The translations under genes and the position numbers were made by a program. This document shows positions 5,187 through 54,991 of a DNA stretch of 64,000 nt, piece after piece; position 1 is the stretch's first letter, and each line of letters starts with the position of its first letter. Under the pieces are notes generated by a model. That model was not told the DNA's origin. It saw only the letters and a program-made list of their open reading frames with translations, and did not search any database. Source of the stretch: Crocinitomicaceae bacterium (lineage in GTDB: Bacteria > Bacteroidota > Bacteroidia > Flavobacteriales_D > Crocinitomicaceae); NCBI GenBank assembly GCA_029254025.1, contig JAQWYK010000039.1, positions 186,001-250,000 of the forward strand, in the 5' to 3' direction.

Positions 5187-6743
5187 ATGAAGCACCTATA
5201 CGCGATTTTAAGTTCTTTTTTGTTGACTTCAACAGGAGGTTTTTCACAAACTTTCGCAGACAACACTGCGCAATTATTTTATGACAATTGCGCAAATTGT
5301 CATAATCCTAATGGAATAGCTCCATTTTCGATAATAAGTTATACTGATGTGGTTGCTAATGCAGGAATCATATATGATGCAATTGCTCAAAAGACAATGC
5401 CTCCTTGGCCTCCAGAAGAAAACTACGTGGGGTTTTCTCATTCACGTGCATTGGAAGAAACAGAGCGTATGTTGCTATTGGACTGGATGACATCAGGTAT
5501 GCCAGAAGGTAATCCGGCGAATACACCGGCCCCTCCGGTATTCAACACAGGAGCTCTTTTAGGAGCGGGAGATTTGGAGATTCAAATTCCGACCTACATG
5601 AGTAAAGCGATATCTGGATCAGATGACTACGTGTGTTTTTCACTTCCTTCTAATTTGCTTCAAAACAGAACAATTCGGGCGATGGAAGTAGTTCCCGGCA
5701 ACCCAGAAATTGTGCACCATTGTTTAATTTATATCGATGAAACGGGGAATTACCCTACTGATACTACAAGTGGAACGTGCAACGGTCCAACAAATGCAAC
5801 ATTGGTTGGAGGATATACTCCTGGATCAACACCGTTGATTTTTCCAAATGGAAATGGTCTAAAGCTGGGTATGGACTTACAAGCCAATTCGAACATTGTG
5901 TTTGCAATGCATTACCCGGAAGGTAGTTATGGCCAGTTCGACGACACCAAAGTGATTTTTCATTTCTACGATGAGTTGGAGTCTGGAATTCGACAAGTCA
6001 GTGCTGATCCGATCATTCAAAATTGGAGCTTTTCGTTACCACCCGAGCAGTTAACAGCTGTGAATGCGTTGTATTCAAATATACCAGTGAATATTTCTCT
6101 CTTAAGTATTTTTCCTCATATGCATTTGTTAGGAAAGTCAATTAAGAGTTACGCGTTGGACCCGTTAAATGATACGATAAGACTCATAAATATCCCTGAT
6201 TGGGATTTCCATTGGCAAGATTTTTACATCTTCAAAAACCTTGTGCGTCTGCCTGCAAATTCTGTAATTCGCGGTGAAGGTGTTTATGATAATACCGTGG
6301 GGAATGTCCATAACCCCAATAATCCGCCAATTGCTGTTTATCCTGGCTTGAATACAACGGATGAAATGTTCTTGGTTTACTTTCATTATCTTCCCTATTT
6401 ACCAGGCGATGAAAACTATGATTTAGAGGAACTAAGCTCTTTAGGGTTAACTTCCTATGATATCACGGCCTCTAATTCTTTTGAAGTCTACCCGAATCCA
6501 TTTGAGACTTCAACCACGATTAGAATTCTAGGAAACACCTCTTCAAATAATGCTTCTGTGAGCATCTATGATTATCGCGGAAGATTGGTGAAAGAGCTCG
6601 TTACAGGAACCACGTTTTCTTCGGATATTCTCTTGAATTGGGATGGGACTAATCAGTCAGGCACCTCTGTTTCTAAAGGAGTCTATATTATTTCTTCCTT
6701 GGTGAATGGGGAACATTCGTTTTCGAAAGTAGTGAAAAGGTAA
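5187..6743 (+). CDS. Secreted cytochrome c / copper type II monooxygenase-like protein with T9SS tail
   Basis: 518 residues. After a signal peptide (ending near GFSQ, residue 21) comes a c-type heme site CANCH (C35, C38, H39). Then follows a region like the copper type II, ascorbate-dependent monooxygenases (PHM/DBH). All six copper-ligand positions seem kept: H177, H178 and H242 for one site; H311, H313 and M394 (in TTDEMFLVYFHY) for the other. The last 80 residues are a FlgD-like T9SS sorting domain (YPNPFE, LLNWDGTNQSG, SKGVYII). The protein should therefore be exported through the T9SS and either released or anchored at the surface. The substrate is unknown. The gene stands alone, before comEC on the same strand. 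Confidence 0.8.
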   Translation: MKHLYAILSSFLLTSTGGFSQTFADNTAQLFYDNCANCHNPNGIAPFSIISYTDVVANAGIIYDAIAQKTMPPWPPEENYVGFSHSRALEETERMLLLDWMTSGMPEGNPANTPAPPVFNTGALLGAGDLEIQIPTYMSKAISGSDDYVCFSLPSNLLQNRTIRAMEVVPGNPEIVHHCLIYIDETGNYPTDTTSGTCNGPTNATLVGGYTPGSTPLIFPNGNGLKLGMDLQANSNIVFAMHYPEGSYGQFDDTKVIFHFYDELESGIRQVSADPIIQNWSFSLPPEQLTAVNALYSNIPVNISLLSIFPHMHLLGKSIKSYALDPLNDTIRLINIPDWDFHWQDFYIFKNLVRLPANSVIRGEGVYDNTVGNVHNPNNPPIAVYPGLNTTDEMFLVYFHYLPYLPGDENYDLEELSSLGLTSYDITASNSFEVYPNPFETSTTIRILGNTSSNNASVSIYDYRGRLVKELVTGTTFSSDILLNWDGTNQSGTSVSKGVYIISSLVNGEHSFSKVVKR

Positions 6744-10009: not shown

Positions 10010-10081
10010 AGGAGTTAATTTTTATTATATCTACATGCAACCTTTTTTCTTACTTTGTGGTCTAAGAATCGATTTGTATTT

Positions 10082-10618
10082 ATGAATGAAGAAACGCTCG
10101 TAAAAGAATGTGTTTCCGGAAGCGCAAAGGCCCAACAACAATTGTTTGATGCTTTTGCTCCGAAAATGTTGACTGTTGCAATGCGGTACATTCGAGATAA
10201 AGAGCGAGCTGAAGATGTCTTACAAGACGGATTTATCAAGGTTTTTAAGAACATTCATAACTTCAAATTGGATGGTTCTTTGGAAGGTTGGGTGAGAAGA
10301 ATAATGGTGAATACTGCTTTGGATCAGTTGAGAAAGGATAAAAAGCATCAAACTGACCTAGAGTTAGATGATGTTTCATTTGAACTGAAACAAAGTAATC
10401 ATACCGAAGCACAGCTTCAAGCAGATTATTTGATGACGCTTGTGAAGGCTTTGCCGGATGGTTACAGAACGGTATTCAATTTGTTCGCAATAGAAGGTTA
10501 TAGCCATAAAGAAATTGCTGACATGTTAGATATTACTGAAAGCACTTCAAAATCTCAATATTCTAGAGCGCGATCAGTGTTGCGAGATACATTAGAAAAA
10601 TTGAAAATTGAACGATAA
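10082..10618 (+). CDS. ECF-type RNA polymerase sigma-70 factor
   Basis: 178-residue extracytoplasmic-function sigma factor. Region 2 is seen as QQLFDAFAPKMLTVAMRYIRD followed by AEDVLQDGFIKVFKNIHNF, and region 4 as LPDGYRTVFNLFAIEGYSHKEIADMLDITESTSKSQYSRAR, a helix-turn-helix. An upstream TTG at 10055 is open in frame, but the ATG at 10082 begins the usual family start. The last 11 bases overlap the next gene, an anti-sigma-like membrane protein, so the two are very likely co-translated and functionally paired. Confidence 0.93.
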   Translation: MNEETLVKECVSGSAKAQQQLFDAFAPKMLTVAMRYIRDKERAEDVLQDGFIKVFKNIHNFKLDGSLEGWVRRIMVNTALDQLRKDKKHQTDLELDDVSFELKQSNHTEAQLQADYLMTLVKALPDGYRTVFNLFAIEGYSHKEIADMLDITESTSKSQYSRARSVLRDTLEKLKIER

Positions 10619-11666
10619 AGACGACATAAAAGAGTTGTTTCAACGTGAACTTGGTAATCATCAAGTCCAGGTTAACCCTCAACTTTGGAAAGGAATCCAA
10701 GGCCAATTGGCAAATTCTGCAGCTGGCTCAGCTGGAAGCTCTATTGTGGCTGTAAAGTCTGCTGTTTCAATTAAAATAGCAGTATCTGTGATCTTGACAG
10801 CAGCTGCTTTAGGTACATATTTTGTGGTTACAACATCCTCTGATATTGAGAAATCAGTTAATGAGAAGTCAAAGACGGCTTCAATCGTTGAAAAAAATAC
10901 TCATGAAGATGGGGTAAATCAATTATCGGATGAAGAGTCGGTTATTACCACTAATGAGGCCGATACCAGCGAAGAGCGATTCATTGACATTACGATGCAG
11001 GTTGAAATTCAGGAAACAATTATCGAAACGATTGCGCTTCCCGAAGAGCTGCAGGCTCCAATGGTACCTGGTAGCGACCCCTTATTTGATCTTAACGAAG
11101 AACGGTTGATTCCAGATGAGACGGAGAGCTTGGAACATGAAATTGTTATTTCTCCTTTGGAAGTTACAGTTGAATATACCAAGCATTCCAACCAACACTA
11201 TTCATTTCAGGCACTTTCAACAGATGCTGAAAAAATTGTTTGGGATTTCGGGGATGGATTAACATATACTGGAACCGAGGCAGAACATATTTTTACGGAA
11301 TCCGGTACGTTTGATGTTGTTGCCACAGCTTTTAAAAACGGTCAATCGAAAACATCTTCTGTGACTGTAACAATTGACGTGGTTGGAAAAATAACTTTAC
11401 TTCCAACTTTTTTCACACCAAATGGGGATGGATCAAATGATGAGTTCTTTATCCAAAGTGAAGGGTTGCATGATTTTAGCATTGTAATTTTAGACGAAAG
11501 CGGGGGAATTCTTTTTGAAAGTAACGACATCAACTTCACTTGGGATGGTAGAGACCGAACCTCTGGAATAATTGCAGAGCCCGGTATTTACTTTTACATT
11601 ATCACTGCCAAAGACGATCTGGGTAACACTATCAGCAAACACCAGCGCTTACAGTTGAAACAGTAG
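10608..11666 (+). CDS. Anti-sigma-like membrane protein with PKD domain and T9SS type B sorting domain
   Basis: 352 residues. The first 40 resemble cytoplasmic heads of Bacteroidota anti-sigma proteins (DIKELFQRELGNHQVQVNPQLWKGIQ). One membrane helix lies at about 54-75 (IKIAVSVILTAAALGTYFVV). An acidic linker follows, then a PKD-like domain at about 180-255 (WDFGDGLTYTGTEAEHIFTESGTF) and a C-terminal gliding-motility/T9SS type B domain (LLPTFFTPNGDGSNDEFFI, then GIYFYIITAKD). The only start compatible with the conserved head is TTG at 10608, overlapping the sigma gene by 11 bases. The pairing suggests it controls that sigma factor. How a protein with a cytoplasmic head would use a T9SS tail is unclear. 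Confidence 0.78.
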   Translation: MNDKDDIKELFQRELGNHQVQVNPQLWKGIQGQLANSAAGSAGSSIVAVKSAVSIKIAVSVILTAAALGTYFVVTTSSDIEKSVNEKSKTASIVEKNTHEDGVNQLSDEESVITTNEADTSEERFIDITMQVEIQETIIETIALPEELQAPMVPGSDPLFDLNEERLIPDETESLEHEIVISPLEVTVEYTKHSNQHYSFQALSTDAEKIVWDFGDGLTYTGTEAEHIFTESGTFDVVATAFKNGQSKTSSVTVTIDVVGKITLLPTFFTPNGDGSNDEFFIQSEGLHDFSIVILDESGGILFESNDINFTWDGRDRTSGIIAEPGIYFYIITAKDDLGNTISKHQRLQLKQ

Positions 11667-47524: not shown

Positions 47525-50500
47525 TTATAATCCACCTAGGTTAAAGCGTAAACGTACACCCGCTGCAGTGTTCCCTGTTGGATAAGAGGTAGCTACTTTA
47601 GGATCAGTCATCATTTGATCATAGTACAGTGATATCGTTAAGTTCTTGTTGAACATATAATCGGCACTCGAGCGAATAGAGAGTACTCGTTGTCCAGCTG
47701 TAGCTTGGTTCGTGTTTTCCACAATCTTTCGTATGACTGTCAAGTTATCTCGGATGGATAAGTCAAACCGAACATTTAAATCAGATGGCTTCAATTTTTG
47801 GCCTCGGACCTTAAAGGGCATTTTTACATTCGAGAATTTATACCCTGTACCTACTACGATTTCCGAACCAATCATTTCAGTGACTTGATTATTGGCTAAG
47901 GATAATGAGGCGTTACGCTCTTTGTTCCATTCAAACTTTGTCAATAAGCCGTTGTTTTTGATTTTCCAGGTTGCGTCAAATCCAATTAATGGGGAAAACC
48001 GTTCTGAAATAGTTATGTTCTGGACTTGTTGAGTAGGAATGAAGTTATTATTTAAATCGCGTGCTGTTAAGTGTCCGTTTTCGTCTTCCACAGCATTAAG
48101 ATTGGTTTGCATTCCTGAAACGGTAACTGTAGAGGTATATCCGTGGCGTAGGGTAAAGTTTTGAACGAACTTCTCCATGCTTTTGAATTTAGACAATCCA
48201 TTGTAGGATATTTGCCAGTTGGGTAAAGGAATGTTCCGAAGTGGATTAATACTTTTCCCATCTACTGGTTTCCCTGAGAATGTAGTAAGGAAAGCACCAA
48301 TGATAACATCTTGTTGTGTTGGACTATACCCTGAGTAATATCCTCCCGAATCCACAAAGCTATAGGAGTTTCCTGTTCCAAGGAACTGTGATACATCCAA
48401 GCGAGCATTTCGAAGTCTATCGAAGGATTGAGAACGATAATCCTTACTCAAATTCTCAAAGGCAGATTGCAGGGAAATAGTAGTATAGGTAACATTCGTT
48501 GTTACGAATCTACTTTGTTGCTGAAAGTCTTGTAGGGAGTCATTGAAGCGATAAAACTCTGAACTATTGTTGGTAAAATTTCGTGTTAGGGTAAGGTCTA
48601 TTTTTAAGTCTTTCAATGGCTCTAAGCCAGCACGTACACCTATGTTCTGTGAGTGCATGATGGTATGTTGAGTATTGAGTAAACTCGTGTCAACGATCCA
48701 ATTCCTATCTGCTGCATAAGGCGCATATTCGAATCCTGTTTCGCGTCCAAATAGGTCACGTTGTTGTTGTCCAAATGCGAAACCTCGCATGTTTGCATCT
48801 TGGAAGGAAGCCCCTTGCATTCCAAAAAGACGCGCTTCTTGGTTAAAACCTGGGAGGAGCATTCCGTCGTTCATGGTGTAGTTAAAAGAAACGTTTCTCA
48901 ACGACATTAAGAGGCGTCCAGCGAATCCAGTAACTGGGTGGTAGGGCTTACCGAATTTATCTTCAAGTTCTTTCTTGCGTTCGTCCTTCTCCGCTTCGTT
49001 TTCATTTTGTTTTTCAAGACGCGGCTCTTTTTTCTCCAGCTTCTTTTCAATTTTTGCAACTAGTTTCTCGTGTTCAATTAATTCCTCCGGAGATAATTTA
49101 TCGGTTTTAACTTTCTCTAAGAGGGCTTGTTCTTTTTTCAACTCCGCTACATCTCGTGAAAGCTTGTTGTCTTTACCGCCAATTGAACGACCGCGCCCTC
49201 TTGCGCTTCCGCCCACGCTTCTTCTAGTACTTCGGCCTCCTTTTCCATCATTGATAATGCTTTGTAGAAGTTCCGATTTACGGTATAGATTCACCATATT
49301 GAACTGGGTCGTGAAATTCACATTTCGACTGTTTTGTATATTGTTACCGAAGGCTTCCATACCTAGGTTTGGACGATTCCACTCATAGGCTCCTGAGTAA
49401 CGTATATTTGAGTTAATCCAATCTAGCGCAGGAATTTTATTGAATGGTAACGTGTAGGCCACATTGTATTGTTGATCAAAGCGCATGGCACGCCCCAATG
49501 TGCTCAACTGAGAGCGCACAGAATCTTGGAATTCTCTGTAAGAATTGGGGTTGTCGCGTCGATTTACTTCTCCATCATTTTCATCGAATATGGATGCGTT
49601 GTTCGATGTAAAATCAAATTTTAAGTTACGGGTGATGTCGTATTTAACGTTGTATCGACGATTCCAAGTAAAGTTTTTCAGGTAAATCGGTTGGAATTCA
49701 AAATTGGTGTTCGGGATATTATTTTTAATCTGACGCTCATTGTAAGTACGCATCAAGTTGTTTTGCATACTTAAACTCTTAGGCCCCAGATATAAGTTCG
49801 CATCTTTTACCAAATCCCACCACTTCGATTTTTTCATAAATTTCACATTCTTAAATGGCTCGAAGAGTTTTGGGCTTCCAGTGTAGTTATAGTTTAAACC
49901 ACCTTTCCAAATCTTCGTTCTGTCGTAGTTAGTTCTGAAATCCCGGAGCAAATCCTCGCTATAGCTATAGTTCAGGGCAAAGTTCGAAATACTCCAAATT
50001 TTAGCTGGTTTACCAGCTCCTCGTTCTTTGCGAACATTATTGAAGTTGAACGAACGCCGTTCATTAAAATCTTGTCCATCTTGGGCTCTTCTTCTTCGCT
50101 CAACCAAATCATAATCGGTGAGTTTCACATCCGGGTTATATGGGTCGAACATTGGATTAATAACCCCAACAGAATAGGTATATAGGAACGGTGCTGAAAT
50201 TCCCACTTTTTTACCTAAGAGTTGCCCTAATTGTGCGTTGGCAGACACGTCAAATGTCATCCGAGTATCTCGCTGGCGCTCGGCAACACGACTGTCAACA
50301 CTTCCCCAGTTGGTTCCGCTATATGTTCCAGCTAATTGAACATTGGCGAAGTCCGCGACCTGAACTTGAGCTCGCGCTAACGCTGCTGAACCACCTTCAT
50401 TTTGGAAGTCTGTTAAGCGAAGTTCATTGACCCATACTTGTCCACATTTAGGTAAGCCATCGTCCGGCTGCCAAGGATGCCCCCCATTTTGGGCCGGATT

Positions 50501-53500
50501 ACGAATTCCAATCATCACTGTTTTGACGTCCACTAAGTTCGGGTTACCTTTTACTTTGATCAGACGCTTGGGGTGAACAACCGTGTTGTCTATATCAGAA
50601 GTTCCTTTTTGATGATTTACTTCTTTGATGTATTCAATATTATATTGTACGTTTGAGCCAGGACTATCTGCAAAGTTATTTCGTTCTTTTTTAACTGCTA
50701 GAAGCTCATCGAATACAATCCTTAAATTATTTTCTTCCGGCCATATATCTTTATCTGAAGAGGCTCCCCATTGGGTCACTTTCAGCGGCACTTCATATTC
50801 GTAATAGTTTTCCCTAAAGTCGGTACCTAAGCGCACAAAAACAGTAATATCATTATCAAAAAGCGGGTCGGTGGGTTCTATTTCTTCGGCGTGGATGAAC
50901 ATTTCAAGATTCTTGTACATGATCATATCCATTCCGATATTACGTGTTGCTGCACGCGCATCCCCGTCTCTTAGGTTACACACTTCAAGCGTCATTGCTT
51001 GTTCGTTCAACTGACGTTGAAACGCCTGTGATGGATCTACTTCTCTCAAAATACCTGGAGGGATGACATAATTAATCGGCTGACGTTGGTCGTGCTCTTC
51101 CACGTTGACAGCACCAATGTTGAAATCCGTTAAGTCTGGATCAATTTGCACTCCATCGGTTGGTGCTTCTAGGCTCTCTAAGAAACGTCTCCATTCTCCT
51201 CGAATAAGTTCTAATTTGGCGAAACGAAGAGTAGTTTGTTGGTTGAAAGACTTTAAGAACATTCGCATAAAACGTATTGATCTGAAATCTGTGATACCGT
51301 TAACCGCTTTGTCGGGGTTACGAATCGGAATTCTAAACTGATACCAGCGGAAGTTTTTCGTTCCTTTCGAATAATCACGTGAATTAATGATGTAGTTTTT
51401 ACCTACCACTAGGTCACTTTGACGCAAGGAAATTTGGTATTGAAAATAGCTTTCCGATTCACTCAAGTTGTTGTCTTGATTGATATCTTCCATGTCAGGC
51501 ATATTTGTCGCCTGAGTAGGATATCCCTCAGCGTTTAGTTGACTCGACATTTCAGGAGTTGGAGAGTTTCCTTCATGACCGTTCCAGTATTTGTATCGTT
51601 CGATGATATTACGTTGCTGAGTATCATAATCATCACCACGGTAATAGTGGTAATTATCTTTTGAGATATCGGCAAGAATTTCTTGTTTAGCAGTAGCAGA
51701 AAGAACGGGGTTTGTGTTAATCCAGTTCACAAAGTTATCATATCCGCTGCGTTCTTCTAAGTCATTATAACCATCTAAACCAACGTCTTGTGTTGAACGT
51801 GAGTTAGGGTCGTTATCAAAAGCGTTCACCACAACCTGTTGAGTAGAGACTTTCCCCCAACTTGTATAATCAATGTTTTGAAGATCTGTTTGGTCAATCG
51901 GTAAACCATTTTCAAATGCCTTTCGCGAATCTGGCAGGATATCTTCAGATAGATTTCCAAGATTAAAGTATAGGTCACCGCCTGAATTAGTTCCGTTTGG
52001 ATCTTGATCTTCATTAAATGGATCTAACATCCAGAATTGAATGTATTCCACATTGGTTAATTCAAAATCAGTTGTGGTTAAGGAACGCATGATCCCGGCC
52101 CATCGTTCTTCTGCGTCAATAAAGTTACCATCTGCGTCGTATGTATTGGTGGTATCGTAGTTATACATTCCCCGTTCATTCGGATAATACGTCATATTTA
52201 GTACAGGTATATTCGTTATTGTACCTAAAGCTGGATTTAAGTTGGGGAACAGGTCAGTTTGATTCACTAATGCAATATTTACGTCTTCCGTTAGCGCGGG
52301 GTCATTACCAATATGATCCGGGGTCAAAGCGTTATTCATGAAGAATAACGGGTCGAGGGTATACCACGATAAATGTGAGCGTTTAAATCCTGCGCGCCAG
52401 TCATTTTTCAACGCGGCTTCAGGGAATAAGTCGTCTTGTCCTTTTGGAATAGAGGCTAAGCGCCACGCCACAAAATTTCTTAAGTCGATGGTAGATTGAG
52501 AACCTTCAAAGTCGTCTACATATGAAATTCCTTGTCTTGAAATAGCACGTGGAGCTCCAGGGATAAGGTGTGCTACTTCGGCATTCAACGTTAAAGAAGA
52601 CATTTGCTTTGTTGATATAGTAGGGATGATGTTGATCAACTTTGTTAAGAACGGCAAATCTGTTCGATAGGAGAGGTCCATGCCAATAATATTGTTGCGG
52701 AAAGGTTCATCTCCGATGTCGACTTTTTGTGTAATTGGGCGCTCCATCATGCGCATCCACGTCGCCCCTAAATTGAAATCAGGATTAAACATATAGTTTA
52801 AATGTGTACCAATGAGGGATTTATTTTGGAACCCAAAAACAGAGTTACTTTCAATTGAGATTTTAATGTCTTGATTGGACTCTAGGACGGCAGAATTCAA
52901 GATTTTTACACGCCCCAAGTTGTAGTCTACCGTAAAGTCCGAGCCTTCTGTGAGGCGAATACCTCCTGCAGTTACCACAACCGAACCTTCAGGTACGTTC
53001 AAGGCATTTAATGGAATATCTGAACTGATCGATGATTTGTACTGACCGTTGAAATAAAAACGATTTTTCTGCGGTTGTTGTTGAGCAGCAATCTTTGTGG
53101 AATCATACAGTTCTTGGTACGCCACGTTGTTGATGATTAGCGGATTTAAACCAACTGCTTCAAATTCTTTTCTTAAGGTCGTTCCAAAAGGTTCAATAGT
53201 GCTAAAATAAATACGACCATTCCGTGTGTTGATAGTACCACCGTTGGTTGCTTTATTGCCGTCATATGTGATGGGTTTATAATCGAAAACACCATCCATT
53301 TGAGGTCGATTATTTTGGTTGAGTCGATCCATTCCAACTACTTCGATGACTTGCTTGTTATCCATACCAGGGTACGGTAAGAAATTAACCAATAAGCTAT
53401 TATCGGGGTTGTTATACAGAATATCCAAACGGAAGCCGTCTTGATCCACTTGATAAGCACCAATGGAGTATACGTTCTTCATCATCAAATCCCATAATTT

Positions 53501-54991
53501 ATTTTTAGGATTGGTGATGGTAGGCTTCAATAATTTTAAGAACAAGGCATCTTGGCCAATGATACCATCTGTAGAGAACTCACCTACCTGGTAAGTTCTC
53601 CCTGAGTACGTATATTCGTATGCAACCGCTAATACCTCATCATTGTTCAATGGGAGATTCACAGAAATGTATCCCAATTGGGCGTTATAGGTAAATTCTT
53701 GGTCAGTCAGTCTACGTGCATTTTCTAATTTTTCATATTCCAAGGCTTGGCGAAATGGACCAGGTTGAGAAACGGTTGATTCTAGCGCAACAACTGCATT
53801 ATTAAATCCACGAATGGTAGGGTTGTTTGTAATGAATTGATACAATCCATTCGCATTATTATCCGGAAGGGGATTTGAGGAAGTACTACCAGGATTTCCA
53901 GACCAGTTATCCGGATTTACTTCTCCTAAATCGGTAAATGCGATGACGTTTCTGGTATCTTCCACTCGATTCGTCATGTTGGTTAACCATACTTCAATTC
54001 GAGTGATATCAACTAACGAATTAATAATAGGGACAGTCGCCATGGCACCGTCATAACTTTCTCGGTGGTGATAATTAAGGAAATAGTGACGGTTGGCTTC
54101 ATATTCGTCCGCCTTGAGCTCGAATTCTTGGACCTGGGCTCCACCGTTGATATTAATCTCTTGTTTTCTTCCTCTCGAGGTAGAGGCAATTGCATCCACA
54201 GTCAATCGACCAAATCGCATTCGAGTTTTAAGTCCAAATAAAGTTTGGGAGCCTTCGATTAATGAGGTGTTAAGAGGCATGGCCACGTTCCCTGCTTCAA
54301 TTTTTTGAAGAATTTGATCTTCTTTACCCGTCCATTCAAGTTTAGTGATATTATCAAAATCGAAAGCTGCTTCTGTGTTGTAAGAGGTTCCAATTTTCAT
54401 TTTATCTCCAATTTGCCCTACCAAGTTCAATTGAATCTTTTGTTGAAAATCGAATCTTGTAATTCGGCGTTGATTTTCGGGCAGCATAGGATTTTCATAG
54501 CGCGCGGTATTCACCCCCATAGAAATTTCGATAGCTCCCTCCGGACGAATGCTGATTTCATCACTACCGAAAATATTGGCAAATCCTGGGTTATCAATTT
54601 TGATTGGAGGAATGAGTGGCTGGCCTTCTTCTGTTTGCGTATCGATTTTCTCTTTCCAATATTCCTTCATTTGATTTTGACGCTCGTACTCAATGTATTC
54701 TTCCAGCGTCATCATGGAAGGGTTTCGGAAGTTCAATTCGTTCCCTATCGTTTCTTTGAAAATATATTTTCCAGTTTTAGGGTCGTAAACAATGGTGCGC
54801 TTCACACTATTGGGATCTCCGAGGTCAAAACTTTGTGGATTATTTGAAGTAGGGTCATTCGTATTCGTAATCGGAAAAGGTAAATTAGTGCTGTCTGGTT
54901 CATTTTGAGAAAAAACGAATAGAGACGACAAACTCACGCTAAGCATGAGTGCGAAATGAAGTAATATTGTATTTAACTTTCTAATTATCAA
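47525..54991 (-). CDS. sprA: Gliding motility / type IX secretion outer-membrane translocon protein SprA
   Basis: 2488 residues, the size of SprA, which forms the giant beta-barrel channel of the T9SS. Signal peptide 1-29. SprA N-terminal-type segments occur (EEYIEYERQNQMKEYWKEKI near residue 90, FDFQQKIQLNLVGQIGDKM, and a later MLNLSYRTDLPFLTKL-like region), and amphipathic strands fill the remainder to a typical barrel end (VRLRFNLGGL). Around residues 1914-2012 lies an unusual Gly/Arg/Ser-rich run (VGGSARGRGRSIGG) then a Lys/Glu-rich helical segment, probably a loop or periplasmic turn. It is the third gene of the conserved maeB-ruvA-sprA order. A weak hairpin CACC-GAAAT-GGTG (47496-47508) lies just downstream. 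Confidence 0.96.
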   Translation of the reverse strand: MIIRKLNTILLHFALMLSVSLSSLFVFSQNEPDSTNLPFPITNTNDPTSNNPQSFDLGDPNSVKRTIVYDPKTGKYIFKETIGNELNFRNPSMMTLEEYIEYERQNQMKEYWKEKIDTQTEEGQPLIPPIKIDNPGFANIFGSDEISIRPEGAIEISMGVNTARYENPMLPENQRRITRFDFQQKIQLNLVGQIGDKMKIGTSYNTEAAFDFDNITKLEWTGKEDQILQKIEAGNVAMPLNTSLIEGSQTLFGLKTRMRFGRLTVDAIASTSRGRKQEININGGAQVQEFELKADEYEANRHYFLNYHHRESYDGAMATVPIINSLVDITRIEVWLTNMTNRVEDTRNVIAFTDLGEVNPDNWSGNPGSTSSNPLPDNNANGLYQFITNNPTIRGFNNAVVALESTVSQPGPFRQALEYEKLENARRLTDQEFTYNAQLGYISVNLPLNNDEVLAVAYEYTYSGRTYQVGEFSTDGIIGQDALFLKLLKPTITNPKNKLWDLMMKNVYSIGAYQVDQDGFRLDILYNNPDNSLLVNFLPYPGMDNKQVIEVVGMDRLNQNNRPQMDGVFDYKPITYDGNKATNGGTINTRNGRIYFSTIEPFGTTLRKEFEAVGLNPLIINNVAYQELYDSTKIAAQQQPQKNRFYFNGQYKSSISSDIPLNALNVPEGSVVVTAGGIRLTEGSDFTVDYNLGRVKILNSAVLESNQDIKISIESNSVFGFQNKSLIGTHLNYMFNPDFNLGATWMRMMERPITQKVDIGDEPFRNNIIGMDLSYRTDLPFLTKLINIIPTISTKQMSSLTLNAEVAHLIPGAPRAISRQGISYVDDFEGSQSTIDLRNFVAWRLASIPKGQDDLFPEAALKNDWRAGFKRSHLSWYTLDPLFFMNNALTPDHIGNDPALTEDVNIALVNQTDLFPNLNPALGTITNIPVLNMTYYPNERGMYNYDTTNTYDADGNFIDAEERWAGIMRSLTTTDFELTNVEYIQFWMLDPFNEDQDPNGTNSGGDLYFNLGNLSEDILPDSRKAFENGLPIDQTDLQNIDYTSWGKVSTQQVVVNAFDNDPNSRSTQDVGLDGYNDLEERSGYDNFVNWINTNPVLSATAKQEILADISKDNYHYYRGDDYDTQQRNIIERYKYWNGHEGNSPTPEMSSQLNAEGYPTQATNMPDMEDINQDNNLSESESYFQYQISLRQSDLVVGKNYIINSRDYSKGTKNFRWYQFRIPIRNPDKAVNGITDFRSIRFMRMFLKSFNQQTTLRFAKLELIRGEWRRFLESLEAPTDGVQIDPDLTDFNIGAVNVEEHDQRQPINYVIPPGILREVDPSQAFQRQLNEQAMTLEVCNLRDGDARAATRNIGMDMIMYKNLEMFIHAEEIEPTDPLFDNDITVFVRLGTDFRENYYEYEVPLKVTQWGASSDKDIWPEENNLRIVFDELLAVKKERNNFADSPGSNVQYNIEYIKEVNHQKGTSDIDNTVVHPKRLIKVKGNPNLVDVKTVMIGIRNPAQNGGHPWQPDDGLPKCGQVWVNELRLTDFQNEGGSAALARAQVQVADFANVQLAGTYSGTNWGSVDSRVAERQRDTRMTFDVSANAQLGQLLGKKVGISAPFLYTYSVGVINPMFDPYNPDVKLTDYDLVERRRRAQDGQDFNERRSFNFNNVRKERGAGKPAKIWSISNFALNYSYSEDLLRDFRTNYDRTKIWKGGLNYNYTGSPKLFEPFKNVKFMKKSKWWDLVKDANLYLGPKSLSMQNNLMRTYNERQIKNNIPNTNFEFQPIYLKNFTWNRRYNVKYDITRNLKFDFTSNNASIFDENDGEVNRRDNPNSYREFQDSVRSQLSTLGRAMRFDQQYNVAYTLPFNKIPALDWINSNIRYSGAYEWNRPNLGMEAFGNNIQNSRNVNFTTQFNMVNLYRKSELLQSIINDGKGGRSTRRSVGGSARGRGRSIGGKDNKLSRDVAELKKEQALLEKVKTDKLSPEELIEHEKLVAKIEKKLEKKEPRLEKQNENEAEKDERKKELEDKFGKPYHPVTGFAGRLLMSLRNVSFNYTMNDGMLLPGFNQEARLFGMQGASFQDANMRGFAFGQQQRDLFGRETGFEYAPYAADRNWIVDTSLLNTQHTIMHSQNIGVRAGLEPLKDLKIDLTLTRNFTNNSSEFYRFNDSLQDFQQQSRFVTTNVTYTTISLQSAFENLSKDYRSQSFDRLRNARLDVSQFLGTGNSYSFVDSGGYYSGYSPTQQDVIIGAFLTTFSGKPVDGKSINPLRNIPLPNWQISYNGLSKFKSMEKFVQNFTLRHGYTSTVTVSGMQTNLNAVEDENGHLTARDLNNNFIPTQQVQNITISERFSPLIGFDATWKIKNNGLLTKFEWNKERNASLSLANNQVTEMIGSEIVVGTGYKFSNVKMPFKVRGQKLKPSDLNVRFDLSIRDNLTVIRKIVENTNQATAGQRVLSIRSSADYMFNKNLTISLYYDQMMTDPKVATSYPTGNTAAGVRLRFNLGGL

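Follow-up and report, generated by a model that had tools for sequence, protein, structure and literature searches.

An ECF sigma factor gene overlapping the gene for an anti-sigma-like membrane protein with a T9SS cargo-tag-like tail

Organization of the locus

The window (the whole 64,000-nucleotide stretch of Crocinitomicaceae DNA that was analyzed) carries on its forward strand a two-gene operon coding for a sigma factor and a membrane protein. Features of the operon, together with a T9SS gene lying elsewhere in the window, are as follows (window coordinates, strand in brackets).

10036..10062 (+): predicted autoregulatory ECF promoter, TGCAAC-N18-GTC, with a -35 element TGCAACC with a T-tract and a -10 element GTCTAA (motif scan)
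10082..10618 (+): ECF sigma factor, 178 aa (Pfam Sigma70_r2 and Sigma70_r4_2), in the main clade of CTD-type sigma factors
10608..11666 (+): anti-sigma-like membrane protein with a T9SS CTD-like tail, 352 aa, TTG start, kept in relatives
10608..10742 (+): predicted cytoplasmic head, ~45 aa, helices at residues 5-16 and 24-37, invariant W27 (alignment, AlphaFold2, hhalign to barrel-type heads)
10776..10832 (+): single predicted transmembrane helix, residues 57-75, with a nearly invariant K56 just before it (hydropathy; K56 in ≥90%)
10833..11177 (+): acidic linker, residues 76-190, probably disordered at least to residue 167 (pLDDT; acidity from the sequence)
11184..11372 (+): PKD domain, residues 193-255, optional in the family (Pfam PF00801; fold match Z 12.1 to 4l9d)
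11400..11663 (+): CHU_C/type-B CTD-like domain, residues 265-352 (Pfam, TIGR04131, fold match to PorZ 5m11)
47537..54829 (-): sprA, the T9SS outer-membrane translocon, outside the operon (TIGR04189, 2399 bits; G000:C36:233537-240829)

The sigma factor open reading frame (ORF) runs from an ATG at 10082 to a stop at 10618 and, as in ECF sigma factors, combines regions 2 and 4 in a small protein (Sigma70_r2, 2.5e-16; Sigma70_r4_2, 2.8e-15; Pfam, 178 aa). Its last 11 nt (10608-10618) overlap the ORF of the anti-sigma-like protein, and the next gene after that is a glyoxalase-family ORF on the opposite strand. The sequence-only reading of this DNA had described an ECF sigma factor followed, across an 11-nt overlap, by a TTG-started protein made up of a head, a helix, a PKD domain and a type-B tail; ORFs, Pfam matches and relatives all agree with that description. 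The sprA match establishes that a T9SS is present in the host genome. A cognate PorP/SprF-like gene usually, if not universally, lies beside type-B cargo, and none of the 13 PorP/SprF-family matches in the genome is found beside the operon. Near the operon, at window positions 5187-6743 (+), lies a gene for a copper-monooxygenase-like protein with a type-A T9SS tail.

Within the anti-sigma-like protein, Pfam recognized the PKD domain (PF00801, 38.9 bits against a cut-off of 23.5, residues 193-255) and CHU_C (PF13585, 53.8 bits against a cut-off of 27, residues 265-339), and the type-B CTD family TIGR04131 scored 34.4 bits, just under its cut-off of 35. No Pfam anti-sigma domain was matched in the head. 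AlphaFold2 modelled the two head helices and a well-ordered C-terminal part (block-mean pLDDT ≥90 over about residues 181-352), with pLDDT <50 over residues 38-167; the model does not draw a membrane helix, which is assigned from hydropathy. The hydrophobic stretch starts only at residue 57, behind the conserved head, and the tail is taken to be periplasmic because of this helix and the positive charge ahead of it. Structural alignment of the CTD part to the C-terminus of PorZ (5m11) gave Z 8.9 and rmsd 2.8 over 88 residues (VIA-align). Ig-like domains of Streptococcal proteases scored slightly higher than PorZ (Z 9.9 versus 8.9), so the fold alone cannot name this part of the protein. Foldseek against the PDB returned chiefly generic Ig/FnIII folds, and the best sequence relative in the PDB was GhpA of Aureispira (2.9e-11; profile search of PDB sequences).

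Conservation among relatives

Residues 1-191 used as a query gave matches in 53 of 99 genomes (host included), mostly one in each. The alignment set consisted of the 30 loci returned by this search, window locus included; protein set A2 covers 25 of the 30 loci in set A1. A head, a hydrophobic helix and a C-terminal CHU_C domain were found in all 30 aligned proteins, with the CTD at the extreme C-terminus each time; at E 0.001, CHU_C was matched in 30/30 and TIGR04131 in 27/30. PKD was found by Pfam in only eight of the 30, so that the head, the membrane anchor and the CTD form the kept unit, and an essential sensory role for the PKD domain can be set aside. In one genus, NGDGxND has been lost and the rest of the CTD kept (L020, L021 and L025, in G032, G047 and G013).

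Gene layout is conserved as well. The nearest start codon of the anti-sigma-like gene is TTG in 19 of the 30 loci, and all 27 loci that could be scored have a sigma-like ORF immediately before it, with an overlap of exactly 11 nt in 16 of them. The order of sigma factor, head, helix and tail recurs across many genera, which rules out a chance fusion or an assembly artefact. Carriers include Fluviicola chungangensis and Crocinitomix catalasitica, both Crocinitomicaceae, and in a tree of sigma factors their proteins fall among the relatives of the window sigma factor.

Some further loci have a related look. Two labelled Bacteroidales (L163:1479-3213 and L111:1677-3429) carry a sigma gene and, behind it, the gene for a CTD-tailed protein in which the head is hardly or not recognizable; their tails likewise lack the Arg-Trp pair considered below, and they are perhaps independent cases. 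The host genome itself holds a second sigma/anti-sigma pair (G000:C47:23027-24927, that is L167:3028-4928) made up of a 211-aa ORF and a protein of 422 aa with a PKD domain and a CTD-like tail that has no RWG; neither Pfam nor NCBIfam recognized a CTD in this tail. A possible GGCAAC-N17-GTC promoter was spotted by eye upstream of that pair, and many relatives have head matches of comparable length (about 410-470 aa).

The tail compared with cargo tags

To compare the tails of anti-sigma-like proteins with those of T9SS cargo, 137 proteins with a C-terminal CTD were collected from the examined loci, 51 with the head and 86 without (ORFs sharing the same last 80 residues were counted once, and CTD matches ending >12 residues from the C-terminus were excluded). 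The cargo tails were gathered with a profile of the anti-sigma tails, which, if anything, works against the differences reported here. Both groups share PN(V/I)FTPN.D..ND, W.G and G.Y.Y. The Arg-Trp of the cargo [N/D]RWG was present in 0/51 anti-sigma tails versus 79/86 cargo tails (Fisher P = 2e-30, relatedness ignored), and in the window protein its place is taken by DESG (residues 296-299). A glycine ∼7 residues from the end was found in 15/51 anti-sigma versus 82/86 cargo tails (Fisher P = 1e-16, relatedness ignored). Two of the seven cargo tails without Arg-Trp probably belong to anti-sigma proteins (L126, cut by a contig end, and L111, with a sigma gene upstream), and both were kept in the cargo count.

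According to the accessible part of one report, the type-B CTD of Flavobacterium johnsoniae SprB has five conserved motifs, each of which is necessary for secretion (PMC12618676), and RWG presumably belongs to one of them. Type-B CTDs bind PorP-like outer-membrane barrels (PMC9143113, in the part available). That the tail acts as an ordinary export signal is not supported, given the absence of Arg-Trp and the scarcity of the C-terminal glycine. Mimicry of a cargo tag appears to describe the tail better than an export function does, and the tail probably stays unexported, although with most of the CTD retained, export or docking at the outer membrane could still occur. If the tail is such a mimic, its lack of Arg-Trp would single out a part of the type-B tag as possibly needed for export rather than for recognition.

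A head shared with barrel-type proteins

A profile of the head alone matched proteins in 26 of 247 genomes of the phylum. Among 27 head-bearing proteins examined besides the window protein and L055, Pfam found OMP_b-brl_2 in 11 and OMP_b-brl in 11, and in 26 of the 27 an upstream ORF ends ≤60 nt from the start. We refer to 20 loci as "barrel-type" on the evidence of their C-terminal sequence, with Pfam support for a barrel in 11 of 27 scanned proteins; a sigma factor is present in the locus in all 20. The head profiles of the CTD-type and barrel-type proteins align to one another (hhalign probability 98.5, E 2.5e-15, 38 columns). A structural model of a barrel-type protein, of modest quality (mean pLDDT 58.8), has two head helices, a helix at residues 46-68, low order over 68-288 and long strands at the C-terminus. 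The window sigma factor shares a clade (support 0.72) with barrel-type sigma factors and with another sigma factor of the host, L049; across the sigma tree CTD-type and barrel-type partners are intermixed, on weakly supported nodes.

This kinship bears on what the second gene encodes. A T9SS surface protein of the ordinary kind, whose signal peptide is long and atypical and whose sigma neighbor is a coincidence, would also have a CTD at its C-terminus and would explain a head in which Pfam sees no anti-sigma domain. Such a head would scarcely be conserved beside a sigma gene across genera, nor would its homologs sit on unrelated C-termini, also behind sigma genes, and the Arg-Trp of cargo is missing; we regard this explanation as very improbable and reject it, since the head stays linked to the sigma gene and is found on barrel proteins as well. 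The two genes very probably encode a sigma/anti-sigma pair, as the sequence-only reading had proposed: they form an overlapping operon, and the head and helix are homologous to those of other sigma-linked envelope proteins.

A known protein of similar design is Dma2, which, in the accessible part of its description, has a head, a helix, a disordered tether and a beta-barrel and is encoded beside an ECF21 sigma gene (PMC13088901). The window protein has such a helix (residues 57-75) and disordered tether (pLDDT <50 over residues 38-167), but where Dma proteins have an outer-membrane barrel it has PKD and CHU_C; the barrel-type relatives do have the barrel. Because the head profiles align and the barrel-type layout matches that of Dma2, we describe the window protein, from its predicted architecture, as a putative Dma-like anti-sigma factor in which a cargo-tag fold replaces the barrel, and do not file it as a Dma; the likeness is one of architecture and of the heads of barrel-type relatives, rather than of alignment to the Dma1 or Dma2 sequences.

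Following the Dma model further, the tail could be carried to or docked on a PorP/SprF-like barrel in the outer membrane, so that the protein would span both membranes as Dma does and signal from the surface. Head, helix and disordered tether are the same as in the barrel-type relatives, type-B CTDs bind PorP-like barrels (PMC9143113, in the part available), and a linker of ∼115 residues could cross the periplasm. Against these points stand the missing Arg-Trp, in most cases the missing C-terminal glycine too, and the lack of an SprF-like gene beside the operon. We also know of no precedent for transport of an inner-membrane-anchored protein through SprA. Taken together, a span of both membranes seems quite unlikely.

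Promoter motif and predicted targets

Upstream of the sigma gene, positions 10036-10062 read TGCAACCTTTTTTCTTACTTTGTGGTC. Of 36 sigma genes like that of the window, 29 have the pattern TGYAAC...[GC]TC upstream, and although spacers of 14-19 nt were allowed, the spacer was 18 nt in all 29 motif-bearing loci. A largely overlapping set of sigma loci had the motif in 28 of 30, one of the two misses being cut by a contig end. A scan applied uniformly to the sigma loci placed the exact motif close to 40 of 50 CTD-type sigma genes (or 31 of 41, if nine loci first picked up by their motif are set aside); it was absent in L037, L057, L082, L085, L093, L099, L111, L130, L156 and L163. The same scan found it at 0/20 barrel-type, 0/3 other and 0/11 further host sigma genes (33 of these 34 loci being testable, as L048 is cut by a contig end), which rules out a promoter common to all ECF genes.

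To find further genes under this promoter, the strict form TGCAACYTTT-N14-GTC was searched in 59 genomes, giving 60 sites, compared with 34 for the reversed motif. Sigma genes like that of the window follow 25 of the 60 sites (13 previously known and 12 newly found), and type-B CTD cargo genes follow 15, two longer genes among these passing the TIGR04131 cut-off once completed. The remaining 20 precede neither class (six stand before small proteins with signal-peptide-like starts and six sit in long reading frames); given these 20 and the 34 reversed sites, a single strict site can be a chance occurrence. With the spacer one base shorter, the same genomes yielded 10 sites (17 for the reversed form). 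No sigma gene like that of the window and no type-B cargo gene began behind any of the 10; a single CTD match, L304, was a 51-aa C-terminal piece 122 nt downstream, which is no gene start. The difference between 40/60 strict and 0/10 shorter-spacer sites had a Fisher P of 8e-5, with the proviso that sites in related genomes are non-independent and that this position-matched control comprises only 10 sites.

In the host genome, the looser form TGCAAC-N18-GTCTW occurs at six sites (five for the reversed control), three inside unrelated genes and three intergenic, one of the latter being the sigma promoter itself. Another intergenic site lies 26 nt before the gene for a 733-aa choice-of-anchor-L protein with a type-B CTD, and the third 53 nt before that for an 833-aa CotH/lamin-tail protein, also with a type-B CTD (TIGR04131, 56.5 bits; cut-off 35). 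A PorP/SprF gene (150 bits; cut-off 90.55) begins 2 nt after the CotH/lamin-tail gene, and the two together occupy G000:C36:181468-185003, ∼1 kb before the start of the window.

Choice-of-anchor-L genes elsewhere gave a divided picture. Of 19 upstream regions scanned, seven had the exact promoter 19-34 nt before the ATG and 12 did not; the seven genes come from six further genomes plus a second one in G010, and every one of their products has a C-terminal type-B CTD with RWG. The 30 choice-of-anchor-L genes with the best scores, mostly of ∼800 aa, included just one, L270, with the exact motif nearby (L256 has a 17-nt spacer, and L264 a 17-nt spacer far away), and the genes examined in G006, G011, G018, G023, G032 and G033, where the sigma pair is present, had no motif. 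Control of all choice-of-anchor-L genes by this promoter is thereby ruled out. Altogether, the motif stands at the gene start of at least 23 type-B cargo genes, distributed over 21 of the 59 genomes, a lower bound because the looser motif was searched in only some genomes. In G001, a genome of the host's genus that is 84% complete, the motif precedes a cargo gene, and the head search there returned only two weaker heads rather than a window-type anti-sigma gene. Small proteins with signal-peptide-like starts also stand under the motif in several genomes (L215, L219 and L230, of 118-130 aa; L216 and L217, of 148-149 aa).

These sites make it likely that the sigma factor controls type-B cargo. 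The T9SS-related targets found are type-B cargo genes and one SprF-like shuttle gene; no T9SS machine gene was among the motif sites examined. The link of the pair to the T9SS gains support from the type-B cargo genes among the predicted conserved targets of the sigma factor.

What the tail may sense

The predicted regulon also bears on an alternative in which the tail is an Ig-like periplasmic domain that senses a ligand or the cell wall, recruited from a CTD but unrelated to T9SS recognition, with the cargo genes forming a surface-protein regulon. The cargo Arg-Trp is absent from 51/51 anti-sigma tails, the fold occurs also in non-T9SS proteins, some of which outscore PorZ, and in the three loci of one genus (L020, L021 and L025) NGDGxND is gone too. 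Set against this, other CTD hallmarks and the extreme C-terminal position (30/30) are kept, and type-B CTD cargo is over-represented in the predicted regulon, which in the host genome includes an SprF-like shuttle gene. We consider a sensor of this kind unlikely, though a serious competitor.

The reading toward which we lean, on sequence patterns, is that a non-exported mimic of the cargo tag couples the supply of type-B cargo to T9SS traffic. That the tail reads the state of the T9SS or of its cargo, much as the sequence-only reading suggested, is something we put forward tentatively. At the inner membrane the head would hold on to the sigma factor, the helix would cross that membrane, and the flexible linker would present in the periplasm a copy of the cargo tag without Arg-Trp. 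There the tail may compete with, or stand in for, cargo tags at the recognition step of type-B export, candidates for which are a PorP/SprF-like shuttle, the translocon or the cargo itself. Because the tail would compete with or replace cargo tags, occupancy of this step would set the release of the sigma factor and hence cargo synthesis, and the most likely mode of working would be homeostatic. Once freed, the sigma factor would transcribe its own operon and one or a few type-B cargo genes through TGCAAC-N18-GTC, one such target in the host genome presumably being transcribed together with the SprF-like shuttle gene.

To our knowledge, how Bacteroidota match the synthesis of T9SS cargo to export capacity is largely an open question. 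If the reading above is true, a single protein that senses with a copy of the cargo's address tag would match supply to export in a simple manner, suggesting a way for the cell to adjust surface-protein production to export. More speculatively, there may be a class of anti-sigma factors that senses secretion traffic through an export-dead imitation of the type-B tag, tag competition setting the transcription of type-B cargo and closing a loop between the secretion machine and its substrate genes, and in which the C-terminal module has been exchanged in evolution between an outer-membrane barrel, as in Dma-like proteins, and a cargo tag. This would suggest that the Dma-like membrane-anchored head is a platform for swapping outer-envelope modules.

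Comparison with known systems

Among the matches listed in a search of open-access titles and abstract openings (subscription literature lying outside its scope), none described a CTD-tailed anti-sigma factor. The window protein resembles type-B cargo such as SprB and PG1035, so far as the available parts of PMC12618676 and PMC9143113 describe them, in its CTD fold, in PN(V/I)FTPNGDGxND and in the C-terminal W.G and G.Y.Y. Unlike that cargo, it has a head and a membrane anchor with no signal peptide in evidence, and it lacks both the Arg-Trp of [N/D]RWG and an adjacent SprF-like gene. In Flavobacterium psychrophilum, the ECF-type promoters called SM6 cover T9SS genes and a sigma/anti-sigma pair (PMC9723704, accessible part), so that there, as at our locus, such a pair and T9SS genes share a promoter motif. 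SM6 targets, in contrast, are T9SS components, the -10 box is CGT, and no CTD-tailed anti-sigma factor is described in the accessible part of that report.

With Dma (PMC13088901, accessible part), the window protein has in common an ECF sigma neighbor, an N-terminal head that probably binds the sigma factor, one helix, a long disordered tether and a C-terminal envelope module. The module is an outer-membrane beta-barrel in Dma and a T9SS CTD-like domain here, in relatives sometimes with PKD, and the targets are vesiculation and PUL genes for Dma, whereas those predicted for the window sigma factor are type-B T9SS cargo genes. In Porphyromonas gingivalis, the CTD protein PorA acts on PorXY-SigP in a proposed T9SS feedback (PMC7712824, accessible part), and there too a CTD-containing protein lies upstream of an ECF sigma factor in such a feedback. 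PorA, however, is a separate surface protein that works through a two-component system on T9SS machine genes, whereas in the window the CTD is fused to the putative anti-sigma factor itself and the predicted targets are cargo genes.
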